Positions 11,472 through 17,453 of a stretch of DNA of 32,004 nucleotides are shown one piece after another. The DNA comes from Allokutzneria sp. NRRL B-24872 (GTDB lineage: Bacteria; Actinomycetota; Actinomycetes; Mycobacteriales; Pseudonocardiaceae). Position 1 is the first letter of the stretch. Each line of letters begins with the position of its first letter. A program made the position numbers and the translations under genes. The stretch is taken from the NCBI RefSeq assembly GCF_002155965.1, contig NZ_MUMH01000063.1, positions 1 through 32,004 of the forward strand. The letters are read 5' to 3'. The notes under the pieces were generated by a model. It saw only the letters and a program-made list of their open reading frames with translations. It made no database searches and was not told the DNA's origin.

Positions 11472-13148
11472 GTGAGCCGCTTTCACCGCTTCATCCCGCC
11501 GCTGGTCTACCTGGCGCTCGCCTTCTTCGTGTACCTGTACCTCTGGCGCAGCCCGGGGAGCAACTTCCTGGTCAACGGCGGCCAGGACCAGAACATGTTC
11601 GAGTGGTTCCTCGCCGCGGGCGCGAAAGCGGTGACCTCGCTCGCCAACCCGTTGCACTCCGAGCTGCAGAACCACCCGCTCGGCGTGAACATGATGGCCA
11701 ACACCACGGTGTTCGGCCTCGGCGTGCCGCTCGCGCCGATCACGCTGCTGTTCGGGCCGACCGTCACGTGGACGATCGTGCTGACCGGCTCGCTCGCGGG
11801 CACGGCGTGGGCCTGGTTCCACGTGATGCGCAAGGAGTTCGGCCACTCGTGGTCGGGCGCGCTGATCGGCGGCGGGTTCTGCGGCTTCGCGCCGTCGGTG
11901 ATCTCGCACGGCAACGGGCACCCGAACTTCGTCGCCCTGTTCGTGCTGCCGTTCATCGTCGTGCGCGCGCTGCGCATCGCTAAGGGCACCCGGCCGATCC
12001 GCGACGGCGTGATCCTCGGCCTGCTGATCACCTACCAGATCTTCATCGGCGAGGAGCCGCTGCTGCTGTGCGTGGTCACGCTCGCGATCGCCCTGCTCGT
12101 GCACACCGCGGTCAAGTTCTCCGAGGTGCGTGCGATGGTGGTGCCCCTGGCGAAGGGCTTCGGCGTCGCGGCCGGACTGTCCGTCGTGATCTGCTCCGTG
12201 CCGTTGTGGTGGCAGTTCTTCGGGCCGCAGAGCTACTCGTCGCTGCGCCACGGCGGCGGCAACGACATCGCCGCGCTCACCGCCTTCGCGACCAAGTCCG
12301 TCGCGGGCAACAAGTACGAGGCCGCGACGCTGTCCATGAACCGCACCGAGGAGAACGCGTTCTTCGGCTGGCCGCTGGTCATCTTCGTCATCGTGATCGC
12401 GATCGTGCTGTGGCGCGTGCTGACGGTGCGCACGATCGCTCTGACCACCGCCGTGATGGCGATGCTCTCCCTCGGCGCCGTCGTCGTCGTGCACGGCACC
12501 GAGACCGTGCCCGGCCCGTGGGCGCTGCTCGGCCAGCTCCCGCTGTTCGAGTCCGTGCTGCCGTCGCGCTTCGCCATGGCCTGCGTGCCGCTCATCGGCC
12601 TGCTGCTCGCGCACGGCACCGACCACCTCGCCGGCCTGGGCCGGTACCGCGTCCTCTGGTTCGGCATGATCACCGCCGTCCTGCTGCCGATCGCCCCGAC
12701 CCCCCTCGACGCGAACGGCCGCCCGGCCCCGCCGGAGTTCTTCGCCTCCGGAATGTGGCGCGATTACGTGGACGACGGTTCTGTCGTGATTGCTCCGCTG
12801 CCCGATCCAGGGGATGCGCGAGCGTTGTCGTGGCAGGCGAGGACCGGAATGGGTTTCCGGCTGGCCGAAGGATATTTCGTGGGCCCCGCCGAGGACCGGA
12901 TCGGGATCTACGGCGCTGTGCGGCGGAAGACGTCGGATTTGTTGGCCCGGGTTCGTGAAGGTGGGGTCGAGATCACGGACGCGGACCGCGCGGCGGCCGT
13001 GGAGGATTTGCGGTATTGGCAGGCGGATGTCGTGGTTTTGACGCCGGAGGAGAAGAGCGGGTTGGTGGGGCCCGCTGTGGCGGCGTTGTTGGGGCGGGAC
13101 GGGGTTTTCGTCGGTGGCGTGTGGGTGTGGGATGTTCGGCGGTTGTAG
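11472..13148 (+). CDS. Polytopic membrane protein, GT-C glycosyltransferase-like topology
   Basis: A 558-residue integral membrane protein. After an N-terminal segment (FIPPLVYLALAFFVYLYLW) come about ten more hydrophobic helices up to residue ~415, then a soluble C-terminal domain of about 140 residues (SVVIAPLPDPGDARAL...VVVLTPEEKSGL). The first extracytoplasmic loop carries GGQDQNMFEWFL, and an Asp-containing first loop is common in GT-C lipid-linked sugar transferases; I infer but cannot prove that activity. GTG 11472 is 4 nt after an odd-centred dyad CGGTA-T-TACCG (11458-11468). Third positions become T/G-rich in the last ~350 nt, continuing into the downstream intergenic region. Confidence 0.75.
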   Translation: MSRFHRFIPPLVYLALAFFVYLYLWRSPGSNFLVNGGQDQNMFEWFLAAGAKAVTSLANPLHSELQNHPLGVNMMANTTVFGLGVPLAPITLLFGPTVTWTIVLTGSLAGTAWAWFHVMRKEFGHSWSGALIGGGFCGFAPSVISHGNGHPNFVALFVLPFIVVRALRIAKGTRPIRDGVILGLLITYQIFIGEEPLLLCVVTLAIALLVHTAVKFSEVRAMVVPLAKGFGVAAGLSVVICSVPLWWQFFGPQSYSSLRHGGGNDIAALTAFATKSVAGNKYEAATLSMNRTEENAFFGWPLVIFVIVIAIVLWRVLTVRTIALTTAVMAMLSLGAVVVVHGTETVPGPWALLGQLPLFESVLPSRFAMACVPLIGLLLAHGTDHLAGLGRYRVLWFGMITAVLLPIAPTPLDANGRPAPPEFFASGMWRDYVDDGSVVIAPLPDPGDARALSWQARTGMGFRLAEGYFVGPAEDRIGIYGAVRRKTSDLLARVREGGVEITDADRAAAVEDLRYWQADVVVLTPEEKSGLVGPAVAALLGRDGVFVGGVWVWDVRRL

Positions 13149-13229
13149 GGGGTTTTTGTAGCTCTTTGGTTGCGGGGTACGGCTGGGCTTCCCGGTTTTG
13201 TTGGGTTCGCGGGGTTGTTGCGTGGGGTC

Positions 13230-13336
13230 GGCTTGACCTGGGGGCCCCTTGCGCGTGCCCCTGGGCCTTACAGGGGCACGGGATAGAACACCCGGCCCTC
13301 GCGCGAGCGTATGGCACGCGCACCCCAGGTAAAGCC
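13230..13336. ncRNA. Structured element with two mutually exclusive pairings (candidate RNA or repeat)
   Basis: An outer stem pairs GGCTT 13230-13234 with 13332-13336; after a G-A mismatch ACCTGGGG 13236-13243 pairs with CCCCAGGT 13323-13330; after a 6-nt one-sided bulge TGCGCGTGCC 13250-13259 pairs perfectly with 13313-13322. This gives 23 bp closing a 53-nt interior with a small GGGCC/GGCCC helix (13263-13267/13294-13298). An alternative 10-bp hairpin, CGTGCCCCTG 13254-13263 with 13271-13280 (7-nt loop), uses the same bases 13254-13259, so both cannot form together. CTCGCGCGAG (13298-13307) is also palindromic. It could be an RNA, a DNA palindromic repeat or a recombination site; I do not recognise a known family, and the strand is undetermined. 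Confidence 0.55.
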
Positions 13337-13436
13337 TCGGCTGTGTTGTGCGCCTTGCGTTCCAGCGTGGGACTTTCGGCGTTTCGGGCGCCTGGGAATT
13401 CATTCTTTAGGGCCATGATCGACTATTATTTGCGGG

Positions 13437-13442
13437 TAGAAT
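13437..13442 (+). promoter_or_regulatory. -10 box of the DUF222-HNH gene
   Basis: TAGAAT is a near-consensus -10 box 6 nt before ATG 13449. It supports that start and a leaderless transcript, in which case the structured element at 13230-13336 is not part of this mRNA. Confidence 0.5.
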
Positions 13443-13448
13443 TGAGGT

Positions 13449-14570
13449 ATGACCCTCGATGAGTTGTTGGTCGAGGTTGAGGCGAGTCACGCTGCTTTGT
13501 GTCATGCGAAAGCGAATCTCGCTTCGGCCTTGACCGCATTCCAACACGCTGCCGATGATCGTGATTACCGGTATGTGCAGAATGAGGTCGCCTGTGCCTT
13601 GCACATCTCCCGACGCGGCGCCGACCACATCCTCTCCAACTCCCTAGAACTCACCGAACGCCCCTTGGTGTTGGCGGCGTTGTCGGCCGGTTCCATCGAT
13701 GAGGGCAAAGCCCGCCTCATCGTCGACCAGCTGCAGATCTTGAAGGAGCCGCAAGCGTCGATCGCCGAGGCAGATCTCCTGGACTACGCGCCCACCCGTA
13801 CCCACACCTCAGTCCGTCGCCGTGCCCAGACGTTGATCCACAAACTGGACCCGAAGGCTGCTGAGCGTCGTCATGAGGAGAAGCGCAAGGAGAGGTTGGT
13901 GTGGAAGACCAACCTGGATGACGGCATGGCCGAACTTCGCCTGGGCCTGACCGTCCACGACACGGCGATGGCCTTCGACCACATCGACCGGATCGCGAAG
14001 TCCCTGCCGAAGGATGACCGCACCCTGGACCAGAAACGCGCCGATGTCGCGCGGGATCTGTTGCTGGGCCTGGACACTCCCGCACCGCAGGGTCAAACCA
14101 TGGTCTACCTGACGATGCCGGTGACCGCCCTCCTGGGGTTGACCGATGACCCGGGGATGCTGGCTGGATACGGGCCGATCCCGACGGGTGTCGCGCAGGA
14201 CATCGCCGCGGGTGGCATCTGGAAGCGGATCTTGACCGACCCCGCCACTGGCATGGCAGAAGAGGTCAGCGATACCTACCGGACGTCGGTGAAGCAGCGG
14301 GAGTTGATCAACGCCCGCTACCCGCGCTGCACCGCGATCGGATGCCAACAACCCGCACAGCGCTGCGACGTCGACCACTGCCGCCCCTACGACGGCACGA
14401 ACACCACGATCCGGAACTTGCGGCCGAAGTGCCGACACCACCACAACATGAAGACCCACTCGAACTGGCGGTGCGAGAACCGCGACGACGGCAGCCACGT
14501 GTGGATTACGCCGAGCGGGCGGGTGCACGAAACGGAACTAGAACCCATCGCCGAACCCGCGCCGTTCTGA
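13449..14570 (+). CDS. DUF222 / 13E12-repeat protein with C-terminal HNH nuclease domain
   Basis: A 373-residue protein: N-terminal helical DUF222 (13E12-repeat family) region to about residue 250, then an HNH domain (about 294-340) with CTAIGCQQPAQRCDVDHCRPYD and KCRHHHNMKTH, containing the Cys pairs and the DH catalytic dyad. Such genes are often multi-copy in actinobacteria. REP13E12 copies in Mycobacterium tuberculosis serve as phage attachment sites, but the nuclease role is not established. ATG 13449 is supported by TAGAAT 6 nt upstream (leaderless); a GAGG immediately before the ATG is too close to act as a standard ribosome binding site. Early codons are unusually T-rich (TTG, GTT, GAT, TGT), unlike neighbours, which suggests acquired DNA. 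Confidence 0.88.
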   Translation: MTLDELLVEVEASHAALCHAKANLASALTAFQHAADDRDYRYVQNEVACALHISRRGADHILSNSLELTERPLVLAALSAGSIDEGKARLIVDQLQILKEPQASIAEADLLDYAPTRTHTSVRRRAQTLIHKLDPKAAERRHEEKRKERLVWKTNLDDGMAELRLGLTVHDTAMAFDHIDRIAKSLPKDDRTLDQKRADVARDLLLGLDTPAPQGQTMVYLTMPVTALLGLTDDPGMLAGYGPIPTGVAQDIAAGGIWKRILTDPATGMAEEVSDTYRTSVKQRELINARYPRCTAIGCQQPAQRCDVDHCRPYDGTNTTIRNLRPKCRHHHNMKTHSNWRCENRDDGSHVWITPSGRVHETELEPIAEPAPF

Positions 14571-16535: not shown

Positions 16536-17453
16536 GTGACCGTCCAGCAGGAAGTCGGCACCCAGCCGCGCGAGCGAGCCAGGGTGCCGATCGCCGAGCT
16601 GCACGGCAGCGACTCGCCCAGGCTCGGCGGAGTGGACGAGGAGCACGCGCGGCGCGTCGCCGAGCAGCCCGACCCGCTCCCGCCGATCCTGGTCTGCCGC
16701 GCCACCATGGCGGTCCTCGACGGGCGGCACCGGCTGCGCGCGGCGCAGCTGCGCGGCGAGGACACCGTCGAGATCGAGCTCTTCCACGGCGACCCGGACG
16801 CGGGCTTCATGCTCGCCGTCCGCCGCAACAGCCTGTCCACAGTGGACCGCAAAGCTGCGGCGCTGCGCCTGGTCAGCACCTACCCGGAGTGGTCGGACCG
16901 GCGGCTCGCGGCGGCCGCCGGGCTCTCGCCGAAGACCATCGCCGCCGCACGCGCCACGGCGCCCGTTCCCAGACAGGGCAGCCGGATGGGCCTGGACGGC
17001 CGGGTTCGCCCGCTCGACCGGGTCTCCGGGCGGCTGCGCGCGGCCGAGCTGCTGGCGAGCGCCCCCGGCTCGTCGTTGCGCGAGGTCGCCGCAGCCGCCG
17101 GGATCAGCATCGGCACCGCCAAGGACGTGCGCGAGCGGGTCCGGCTCGGCCAGGACCCGGTCGGCCCGCGCCGCCGCGAGGAGGAGCCGAACGCGCCCCA
17201 GGGCTTCACCGACTCGCTGGAGCTGCTGAACAACCTGCGGCGCGACCCGTCGCTGCGCTGCTCCGAAGTGGGCAGGGGAGTGCTTCGGCTGCTCGGCGCG
17301 CACTTCCTGGACCGCCGCGAGTGGGACCGCTTCGCCGACGCGGTGCCCCGGCACTGCGCCAAGGGCATGGCCCAGATCGCCCGGCAGTGCGCGGAAGCCT
17401 GGTCGGACTTCGCCGACCAGGTCGAGCGGAAGCCGCCTAGGGAACGGCGTTGA
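16536..17453 (+). CDS. StrR-like ParB-domain transcriptional regulator
   Basis: A 305-residue DNA-binding protein. The N-terminal ParB/sulfiredoxin-like domain (about 15-100) contains VLDGRHRLRAAQLRG at residues 60-74. An HTH follows at about 121-139 (RRLAAAAGLSPKTIAAAR) and a second HTH-like segment at about 180-202 (LREVAAAAGISIGTAKDVRERV). This order and sequence style match StrR/NovG-type activators, which switch on aminoglycoside, aminocoumarin and glycopeptide clusters, rather than chromosome-partition ParB. No such cluster is visible within 15 kb, so its target lies elsewhere or is not a classical cluster. GTG 16536 has AAGGAG 5 nt upstream. The 3' end overlaps the convergent LysR gene by 17 bp; one GTCCACAGTGGAC palindrome lies at 16835-16847. 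Confidence 0.85.
   Translation: MTVQQEVGTQPRERARVPIAELHGSDSPRLGGVDEEHARRVAEQPDPLPPILVCRATMAVLDGRHRLRAAQLRGEDTVEIELFHGDPDAGFMLAVRRNSLSTVDRKAAALRLVSTYPEWSDRRLAAAAGLSPKTIAAARATAPVPRQGSRMGLDGRVRPLDRVSGRLRAAELLASAPGSSLREVAAAAGISIGTAKDVRERVRLGQDPVGPRRREEEPNAPQGFTDSLELLNNLRRDPSLRCSEVGRGVLRLLGAHFLDRREWDRFADAVPRHCAKGMAQIARQCAEAWSDFADQVERKPPRERR

Follow-up and report, generated by a model that had tools for sequence, protein, structure and literature searches.

Genes and features at the locus

The window analysed here is a stretch of 32,004 nucleotides from the draft genome of Allokutzneria sp. NRRL B-24872 (assembly GCF_002155965.1, contig NZ_MUMH01000063.1, positions 1 to 32,004). It carries a palindromic element at 13230–13336, which stands upstream of a 13E12-type gene coding for a DUF222 domain followed by an HNH nuclease domain. 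The element is a real feature: it is a repeat rather than a switch, and through it an orphan gene family becomes linked to a structured palindrome. Its parts and immediate neighbours are given below; R1 and R2 are covariance models built on Allokutzneria and on other genera only, respectively, and A3 is the alignment of sequences from outside the genus.

13230–13336, forward strand: core palindromic element, one of 54 copies in the genome, full-length match to R1 and R2
13230–13243, forward: 5′ arm of outer stem P1a, partner 13323–13336, G-A mismatch 13235/13331, read from the sequence
13323–13336, forward: 3′ arm of P1a, partner 13230–13243; the part 13306–13336 is matched 54 times in the genome
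13244–13249, forward: one-sided six-nucleotide bulge GCCCCT on the 5′ side, 4–6 nucleotides in relatives (folds of 41 relatives, judged by eye)
13250–13259, forward: 5′ arm of inner stem P1b, partner 13313–13322, changes on both sides in 10 of 10 pairs across genera (A3)
13313–13322, forward: 3′ arm of P1b, partner 13250–13259, same A3 count
13260–13274, forward: variable hairpin P2 (13260–13263 with 13271–13274), weakly conserved, 63.6% of cells paired (A3)
13275–13297, forward: hairpin P3 (GGC-A-CGGG / CCCG-GCC), changes on both sides in 7 of 7 pairs across genera, 97.0% of cells paired
13300–13309, forward: hairpin P4 (CGC-GCGA-GCG), changes on both sides in 3 of 3 pairs, 85.1% of cells paired
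13449–14570, forward: DUF222/HNH (13E12-type) gene, 373 amino acids, PF02720 at 63.9 bits (cut-off 24.4); homology between copies stops at the stop codon
13437–13442, forward: −10-like TAGAAT, six nucleotides before the DUF222 start codon, predicted leaderless promoter
13306–13333, reverse: promoter-like pair TTTACC (13333–13328), 16 nucleotides, TACGCT (13311–13306), predicted by pattern only
13181–13192, forward: GGCTGGGCTTCC unit; in alignments of the copies, small-hairpin units like GGCTGGGCTTCC stand upstream in variable number

The nested arms described in the original prediction, which was made from the letters of the window (5 + 8 + 10 bp, with a G-A mismatch and a 6-nt bulge), can be read directly in the sequence. 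In P1a, GGCTT (13230–13234) pairs with AAGCC (13332–13336) at the outer end and ACCTGGGG (13236–13243) with CCCCAGGT (13323–13330) further in. P1b is formed by TGCGCGTGCC (13250–13259) and GGCACGCGCA (13313–13322), and 93.2% of its cells are paired across genera (A3). The alternative local hairpin of 10 bp is equally possible in the window, as CGTGCCCCTG at 13254–13263 can pair with CAGGGGCACG at 13271–13280; this competing hairpin is P2 extended by 13254–13259/13275–13280. Folded as a single sequence, the element reaches −64.4 kcal/mol on the forward strand (z −2.08; 6 of 200 shuffles equally good) and −65.6 on the reverse strand (z −2.69; 3 of 200). Such a fold is by itself unremarkable at this GC-richness, and its significance comes from the relatives.

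Copy number and distribution

A similarity search of the genome (8.19 Mb, 475 contigs) gave 40 scored matches among 78 candidates. The 3′ part of the element (13306–13336, 31 nucleotides) has 54 genomic copies at up to three mismatches, 46 of them exact, and none in the reversed control. Two other genomes of the genus hold 61 and 54 copies. The second suggestion of the original prediction, that the palindromes mark a repeat scattered through the DNA next to the 13E12-type gene, is thus right. In this draft many copies lie within a few hundred bases of contig ends, as the modules seem to break the assembly, and its copy and gene counts are therefore probably lower bounds. On the chromosome of the complete Allokutzneria genome G002 (C1, 8.57 Mb), 50 of 54 copies fall within 0.42–3.91 Mb and four in the remainder.

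By DNA similarity, the element was found in 3 of 41 genomes, its own included, all of them Allokutzneria. Covariance model R1 has matches in 22 of 390 genomes of the family and in 7 of 46 genera of Pseudonocardiaceae, the own genus included, and the matches among those listed span the whole model. A pattern scan gave at least 106 stretches, the best 80 of which all come from four Pseudonocardiaceae genera (Allokutzneria, Lentzea, Umezawaea and Saccharothrix); these 80 set no outer bound on the spread. Element counts are lower bounds, since the best 10 candidates per genome were scored family-wide and the best 150 per genome in the covariance scans of single genomes. The element pattern was absent from viral contigs, and 13180–14570 has no blastn match in phages or plasmids.

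The palindrome and the DUF222-HNH gene form a module

There are 46 DUF222 matches in this genome and 50 in G002. In G002, 43 of the 54 elements have a DUF222 match 187–476 nucleotides downstream on the same strand, and for eight of the remaining 11 the DUF222 sequence consists of remnants or of a gene interrupted by an insert. In total, 51 of 54 elements lie 5′ of a DUF222/HNH gene or its remnant, a remnant count from which the L108 match, an artefact of a wrong query open reading frame (ORF), is left out.

In copies with a clear ORF start, the gap between element and start codon is mostly 105–125 nucleotides and holds a conserved block whose end is TAGAAT or TAAAAT, right before the ATG. A narrow pattern finds one of these boxes 3–9 nucleotides before the ATG in 48 of the 106 genus copies with at least 140 nucleotides of room, and a TAGAAT-type box precedes the ATG also in G010, a genome of another genus. 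In actinobacteria, a −10-like box at 6–7 nucleotides from the start codon typically marks a leaderless mRNA. In the window, TAGAAT (13437–13442) lies about 100 nucleotides downstream of the element and ends six nucleotides before the ATG; the element is thus probably outside the DUF222 mRNA, with transcription starting downstream of it.

Copies of the 372/373-residue subfamilies are alike from GGCTGG-type hairpin units upstream through the stop codon and unrelated past it, and they carry the 5′ element only. In another subfamily (406–412 residues), the gene of some copies is followed on its 3′ side by a further element in inverted orientation. Such inverted pairs bracket many DUF222 genes of Lentzea and some of Allokutzneria. 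The Lentzea genome G256 has 17 of its 18 detected elements adjoining DUF222 genes, and six inverted pairs each bracket one. In Allokutzneria and Lentzea the palindrome and the DUF222-HNH gene form a module, in which the palindrome either stands about 100 nucleotides 5′ of the gene or brackets it as an inverted pair. Many Allokutzneria copies are preceded by arrays of short hairpins of the GGGTACGGCTGGGCTTCCAGC type, with a variable number of units (e.g., in L058 before 3114).

Elements and DUF222 genes outside the genus

A DUF222 match (with a profile built in this analysis) lies within 1.5 kb downstream of 14 of 47 copies fetched from outside the genus. In Umezawaea, copies are mostly solo and mostly behind genes: genome G024 has at least 62 elements and seven DUF222 matches, every element found being at least 9 kb away from any match. 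At least 14 elements and one DUF222 match are found in G099, and at least 18 elements and four matches in G226, adjacent in neither; G046 has at least four elements and no DUF222 match. The element can thus persist without the gene. Four elements on C1 of G024 (8316174, 8323979, 8332318 and 8340324) are spaced nearly regularly, about 8 kb apart.

The solo elements of G024 and G046 favour an alternative in which the palindrome is passive: it would resemble a repetitive extragenic palindromic (REP) sequence or a miniature inverted-repeat transposable element and be moved in trans by an unrelated transposase, with DUF222 hitch-hiking or inserting beside it. Placement in Umezawaea tangerina points the same way. 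Of 28 copies classified (of 33; five at locus ends were left out, and genes are ORF calls of this analysis), 16 lie in tandem, 11 in convergent and one in divergent gaps and none within a gene; by comparison, these loci contain 34 tandem, 23 convergent and 17 divergent gaps of 120 bp or more, element-bearing ones included. The REPs of E. coli are placed similarly. Against a passive palindrome stand its near-complete coupling to DUF222 in Allokutzneria and Lentzea and the lack of a recognised target duplication. Furthermore, five of the seven genomes examined (G000, G002, G024, G099 and G226) have no Y1 transposase (PF01797), other transposase families lying outside that search. G046 and G256 have one each, neither beside a detected element. 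Overall, we consider the passive account unlikely, though a serious contender.

Some DUF222 genes have other palindromes. A search of 22 DUF222 loci, one from this genome, with R2 found the element in the own locus and in one Lentzea locus. The DUF222 genes of G008 and G010, both from other genera, have upstream palindromes of their own with a different sequence (L182 and L198; L176 and L192). That of G008 is 55 nucleotides long and contains GAAGTTGACGATGTTC and its complement, and G010 shows the same TAGAATCGAGG-ATG start. In both genomes, the copies cease to be homologous at the stop codon or no more than roughly a dozen bases from it, and in G028 homology continues beyond. No inverted repeat was detected at the DUF222 genes of four of the eight genomes compared. 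In G026, from another family of the order, the two halves of a 52-nucleotide inverted repeat (L196, 1224–1275 and 3063–3114, 90% identity) are found close to either end of a DUF222 gene.

The folded shape is conserved across genera

Within the genus the arms are almost invariant. Alignment A2, the seed of R1, takes 27 sequences, each of the commonest type, from the 83 trimmed distinct cores. It has one pair changed on both sides, and 326 of 500 shuffles do as well; no covariation beyond shuffles was found in it, the competing helix included. RNAalifold, applied to alignment A1 (102 of 107 cores; L041, L066:1937, L102, L113 and a reverse-strand match in L065 were left out), gave 22 pairs, two of them changed on both sides, with a covariation term of −0.46. 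Owing to this near-invariance, Allokutzneria alone could not decide the matter.

Outside the genus, the ends of the element (GRYTTGAYNT followed by runs of G and C) and their 3′ partners are constant; within P1a, TTGA is unchanged across sequences of seven genera and the neighbouring bases vary in pairs. The 10-bp stem P1b is swapped for a quite different complementary sequence, and P3 and P4 likewise. Beyond the core, the palindrome continues outward with genus-specific sequence, by as much as about 19 bp in G046; the complementary arms there differ from copy to copy.

A3 comprises all 49 matches in 40 regions fetched around 74 listed places outside the genus. It was aligned to the covariance model and so leans towards it, and it includes two reverse-strand readings of other rows; per-copy counts use the remaining 47. 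In A3, 91.1% of cells are paired (69.0% in shuffles), both sides change in 31 of 36 pairs (23.3 in shuffles), and the score is 0.486 (0.139 shuffled; at most 0.103 for slid structures). None of 500 shuffles reaches the observed value for any of the three measures. The complementarity of P1b is also present in unaligned sequences: 38 of 42 distinct elements (41 distinct sequences from outside the genus and the window copy) have a contiguous stem of at least 6 bp. R2 finds 13230–13336 of the window at full length with 93.2 bits (E 1e-20), against 35.8 bits on the reverse strand, and detects eight elements in seven other loci of the genus (eight sources searched). These comparisons indicate that the folded shape of the palindrome is under constraint in Pseudonocardiaceae.

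The original prediction had proposed a switch or attenuator and looked to compensatory changes in both helices for support. Such changes are abundant in the long stem and the inner hairpins but not in the competing hairpin, which beats shuffles in only two of the 42 distinct elements, the window copy and one Lentzea copy. A competing stem of at least 6 bp occurs in 19 of the 42, no more than shuffles give; the full 10-bp form is a feature of some Allokutzneria copies. A riboswitch or attenuator of the DUF222 gene was therefore rejected, as its two alternative helices, though both occur in the window copy and in the most frequent core type of Allokutzneria, are not both conserved. The position of the element upstream of the predicted transcription start and that of the Umezawaea solo copies behind genes also speak against such a device, which we regard as extremely improbable. 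No terminator-like site was found at 13100–13560.

DNA palindrome or RNA

In line with the original prediction, which recognised no known RNA family, none was found for the element: neither the window nor seven loci of relatives have an Rfam match (for the latter up to E 1), and in 13200–13460 only BjrC80 is reported, at 10.5 bits against a gathering threshold of 80. The strong covariation in the stems could nonetheless reflect a structured small RNA, perhaps transcribed from the reverse-strand promoter and, for instance, serving the HNH nuclease as a partner or guide, much as the omega RNA serves IscB. Several features are consistent with this view. The element is located 5′ of an HNH gene, as in IscB loci, and has a one-sided bulge. 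The four-base loops of P4 are of the GNRA type (GCGA, GCAA or GTGA) in 25 of 26 cases, although 69 of the 95 parsed copies (of 107 genus cores) have longer loops. The promoter-like pair (TTNAC-N15-17-TANNNT) is present on one strand only, in 35 of 42 distinct elements on the reverse strand and in none on the forward strand. Finally, within the genus (A2), G-U cells outnumber A-C cells by 36 to 7 on the forward strand.

Across genera, wobble counts disagree between stems: A3 has 44 A-C and 3 G-U cells in P1a and P1b, 32 A-C and 14 G-U in P2, and 26 G-U and 3 A-C in P3 and P4, a few columns dominating each count. The wobble pairs thus fit no single transcript strand. The promoter-like pair lies opposite to the strand favoured by P3, P4 and the genus alignment, and its usual spacer of 15–16 nucleotides is short. 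Three outer pairs in Umezawaea switch between two Watson–Crick forms without an intermediate in 40 distinct copies, and a few intermediates are seen in Lentzea. Taken with the missing Rfam match and the elements of G024, G046, G099 and G226 that have no DUF222 gene nearby, these points make a small RNA quite unlikely; judged from the pairing, the element looks more like a DNA palindrome than an RNA.

Complementary arms without intermediates also favour the passive palindrome, which would owe its paired changes largely to template-switch correction of imperfect palindromes. This is a known mutational process and could create part of the paired changes without selection. Correction should, however, also erase the one-sided bulge, which is kept in relatives. 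We give this part of the passive account the same low weight as the rest.

The DUF222-HNH protein

With a DUF222 domain followed by an HNH domain and many copies, the gene family of the window is of the 13E12 type. In the window protein the HNH domain is matched by PHROGs phrog_333 (E 9.3e-05) and is also present in the structure model; Pfam HNH was not reported. A text pattern for HNH occurs in 40 of 68 proteins of the genus, and 21 of the other 28 were missed through a fault of the pattern, since they carry EAHH instead of DH.

In the structure model, which is of low confidence, the N-terminal part of the protein is closest to the DNA-binding fold of ParB/Noc and is followed by the C-terminal HNH domain. 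The top rows of the fold comparison, based on the same model and the only place where the N-terminal CTP-binding domain of ParB was looked for, align only the DNA-binding part of ParB chains. There is no ParB/Noc match for DUF222 at the level of sequence. In the rows listed, no RuvC or IscB fold is paired with the N-terminal part, an absence that proves nothing. NCBIfam assigns no family to the window protein and hence no IscB. The HNH domain of a Lentzea DUF222 protein resembles that of IscB weakly (20.5 bits, cut-off 175), a slight point for the small RNA. PADLOC reported no family for three DUF222 proteins.

The predicted fold, together with the crowding of 50 of 54 G002 copies in one 3.5-Mb stretch, could suggest a chromosomal binding site of the parS or Noc-binding-site kind, recognised by DUF222 or another ParB-like factor and serving chromosome organisation or gene control instead of mobility. 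However, an element of about 107 nucleotides with inner hairpins far exceeds a site of 14–16 bp, the copies adjoin nuclease genes, and most positions are not common to G002. We therefore judge this role very unlikely. Near the DUF222 gene, an ORF at 16536–17453 has an N-terminal sequence that presumably resembles a ParB/sulfiredoxin-type domain.

Possible movement and gene conversion

Only 9 of 56 copies of this genome with enough flank have a flank of at least 300 bp at 75% identity or more in common with any fetched G002 copy, a comparison in which contig ends and unfetched decayed copies may hide shared positions. The window locus is not empty in two relatives (L240 and L241): both carry the module in the opposite orientation, pointing away from a transporter gene towards which the window's module points, and the G002 module is decayed. 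No target-site duplication was recognised by eye, and the flanks show palindromic continuation. Core types are common to different gene subfamilies; in subfamily C, type III is found in 7 of 11 copies in this genome and type I in 8 of 10 in G002. This distribution of core types is as would be expected of gene conversion, a process reported for REP13E12 of Mycobacterium tuberculosis in the available part of PMC13061034.

Discussion

The dispersal of the repeat, its association with DUF222, the conservation of its structure and the boundaries of the module are established; the fold similarity comes from a low-confidence model. As the best reading of the whole, which we hold tentatively and regard as nearly an even call, the element is a dispersed DNA palindrome that probably serves as a recognition site via which DUF222-HNH modules spread. 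The link between protein and palindrome is inferred, and we offer binding, cutting and movement as proposals. The DUF222 protein would bind the palindrome through its ParB/Noc-like N-terminal domain, and its HNH domain would cut at the palindrome or at a target. The module, comprising palindrome, leaderless promoter and gene up to the stop codon, may then spread and homogenise by break repair or gene conversion, and palindromes could persist alone after loss of the gene. In its strongest form, which we think rather doubtful, this proposal holds that DUF222-HNH proteins, abundant in Actinobacteria, bind palindromes in the manner of ParB/Noc and carry a nuclease arm, and that they recognise and spread their own palindromic repeats. 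Gene and palindrome would then be a self-spreading two-part element, with an unrelated palindrome in place of this one in other genera (G008 and G010).

Among the closest known systems is REP13E12/13E12 of M. tuberculosis, which likewise consists of scattered, multi-copy DUF222-HNH genes and is described as prone to gene conversion and without assigned function (PMC13061034, PMC10589994, in the parts available). Unlike here, those parts name no palindromic element, and the likeness is one of description, not of DNA comparison. A third paper, PMC10123090, was set aside, since its available part concerns DUF2220, which is unrelated. Among the papers listed by a limited literature search, none was found to deal with this element or with palindromes next to DUF222 genes.

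Like REP sequences with their REP-associated tyrosine transposases (RAYT), the element is a palindrome dispersed between genes and seldom found in divergent gaps, and in some genera inverted pairs of it flank one gene. The flanked gene, however, is an HNH nuclease present in many copies. Membership of the REP/RAYT system was rejected because, although the palindrome is dispersed, none of the seven genomes examined has a cognate Y1 (HUH) transposase flanked by palindromes. Similarly, IscB/HEARO loci are dispersed modules in which a structured element (omega RNA) directly precedes the gene of an HNH nuclease, but here there is neither an Rfam match nor a passing IscB match, the N-terminal part is predicted to be ParB/Noc-like, and the element also occurs alone in large numbers. 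ParB and Noc bind palindromes, and the predicted DNA-binding fold of DUF222 is, in the low-confidence model, closest to theirs. In contrast to parS and Noc sites, the element is much longer and has inner hairpins, and the DUF222 protein has a C-terminal HNH domain.

The REP13E12/DUF222 repeats are described as having no defined function (PMC13061034, in the part available). In two genera, they are now connected with a palindrome of conserved structure and with a palindrome-binding fold that is predicted but uncertain. This connection gives a first clue to what DUF222-HNH nucleases may recognise, and the function is testable by a single binding assay. If the proposal is true, these repeats would spread without a known transposase and would represent an HNH counterpart of the REP/RAYT system.
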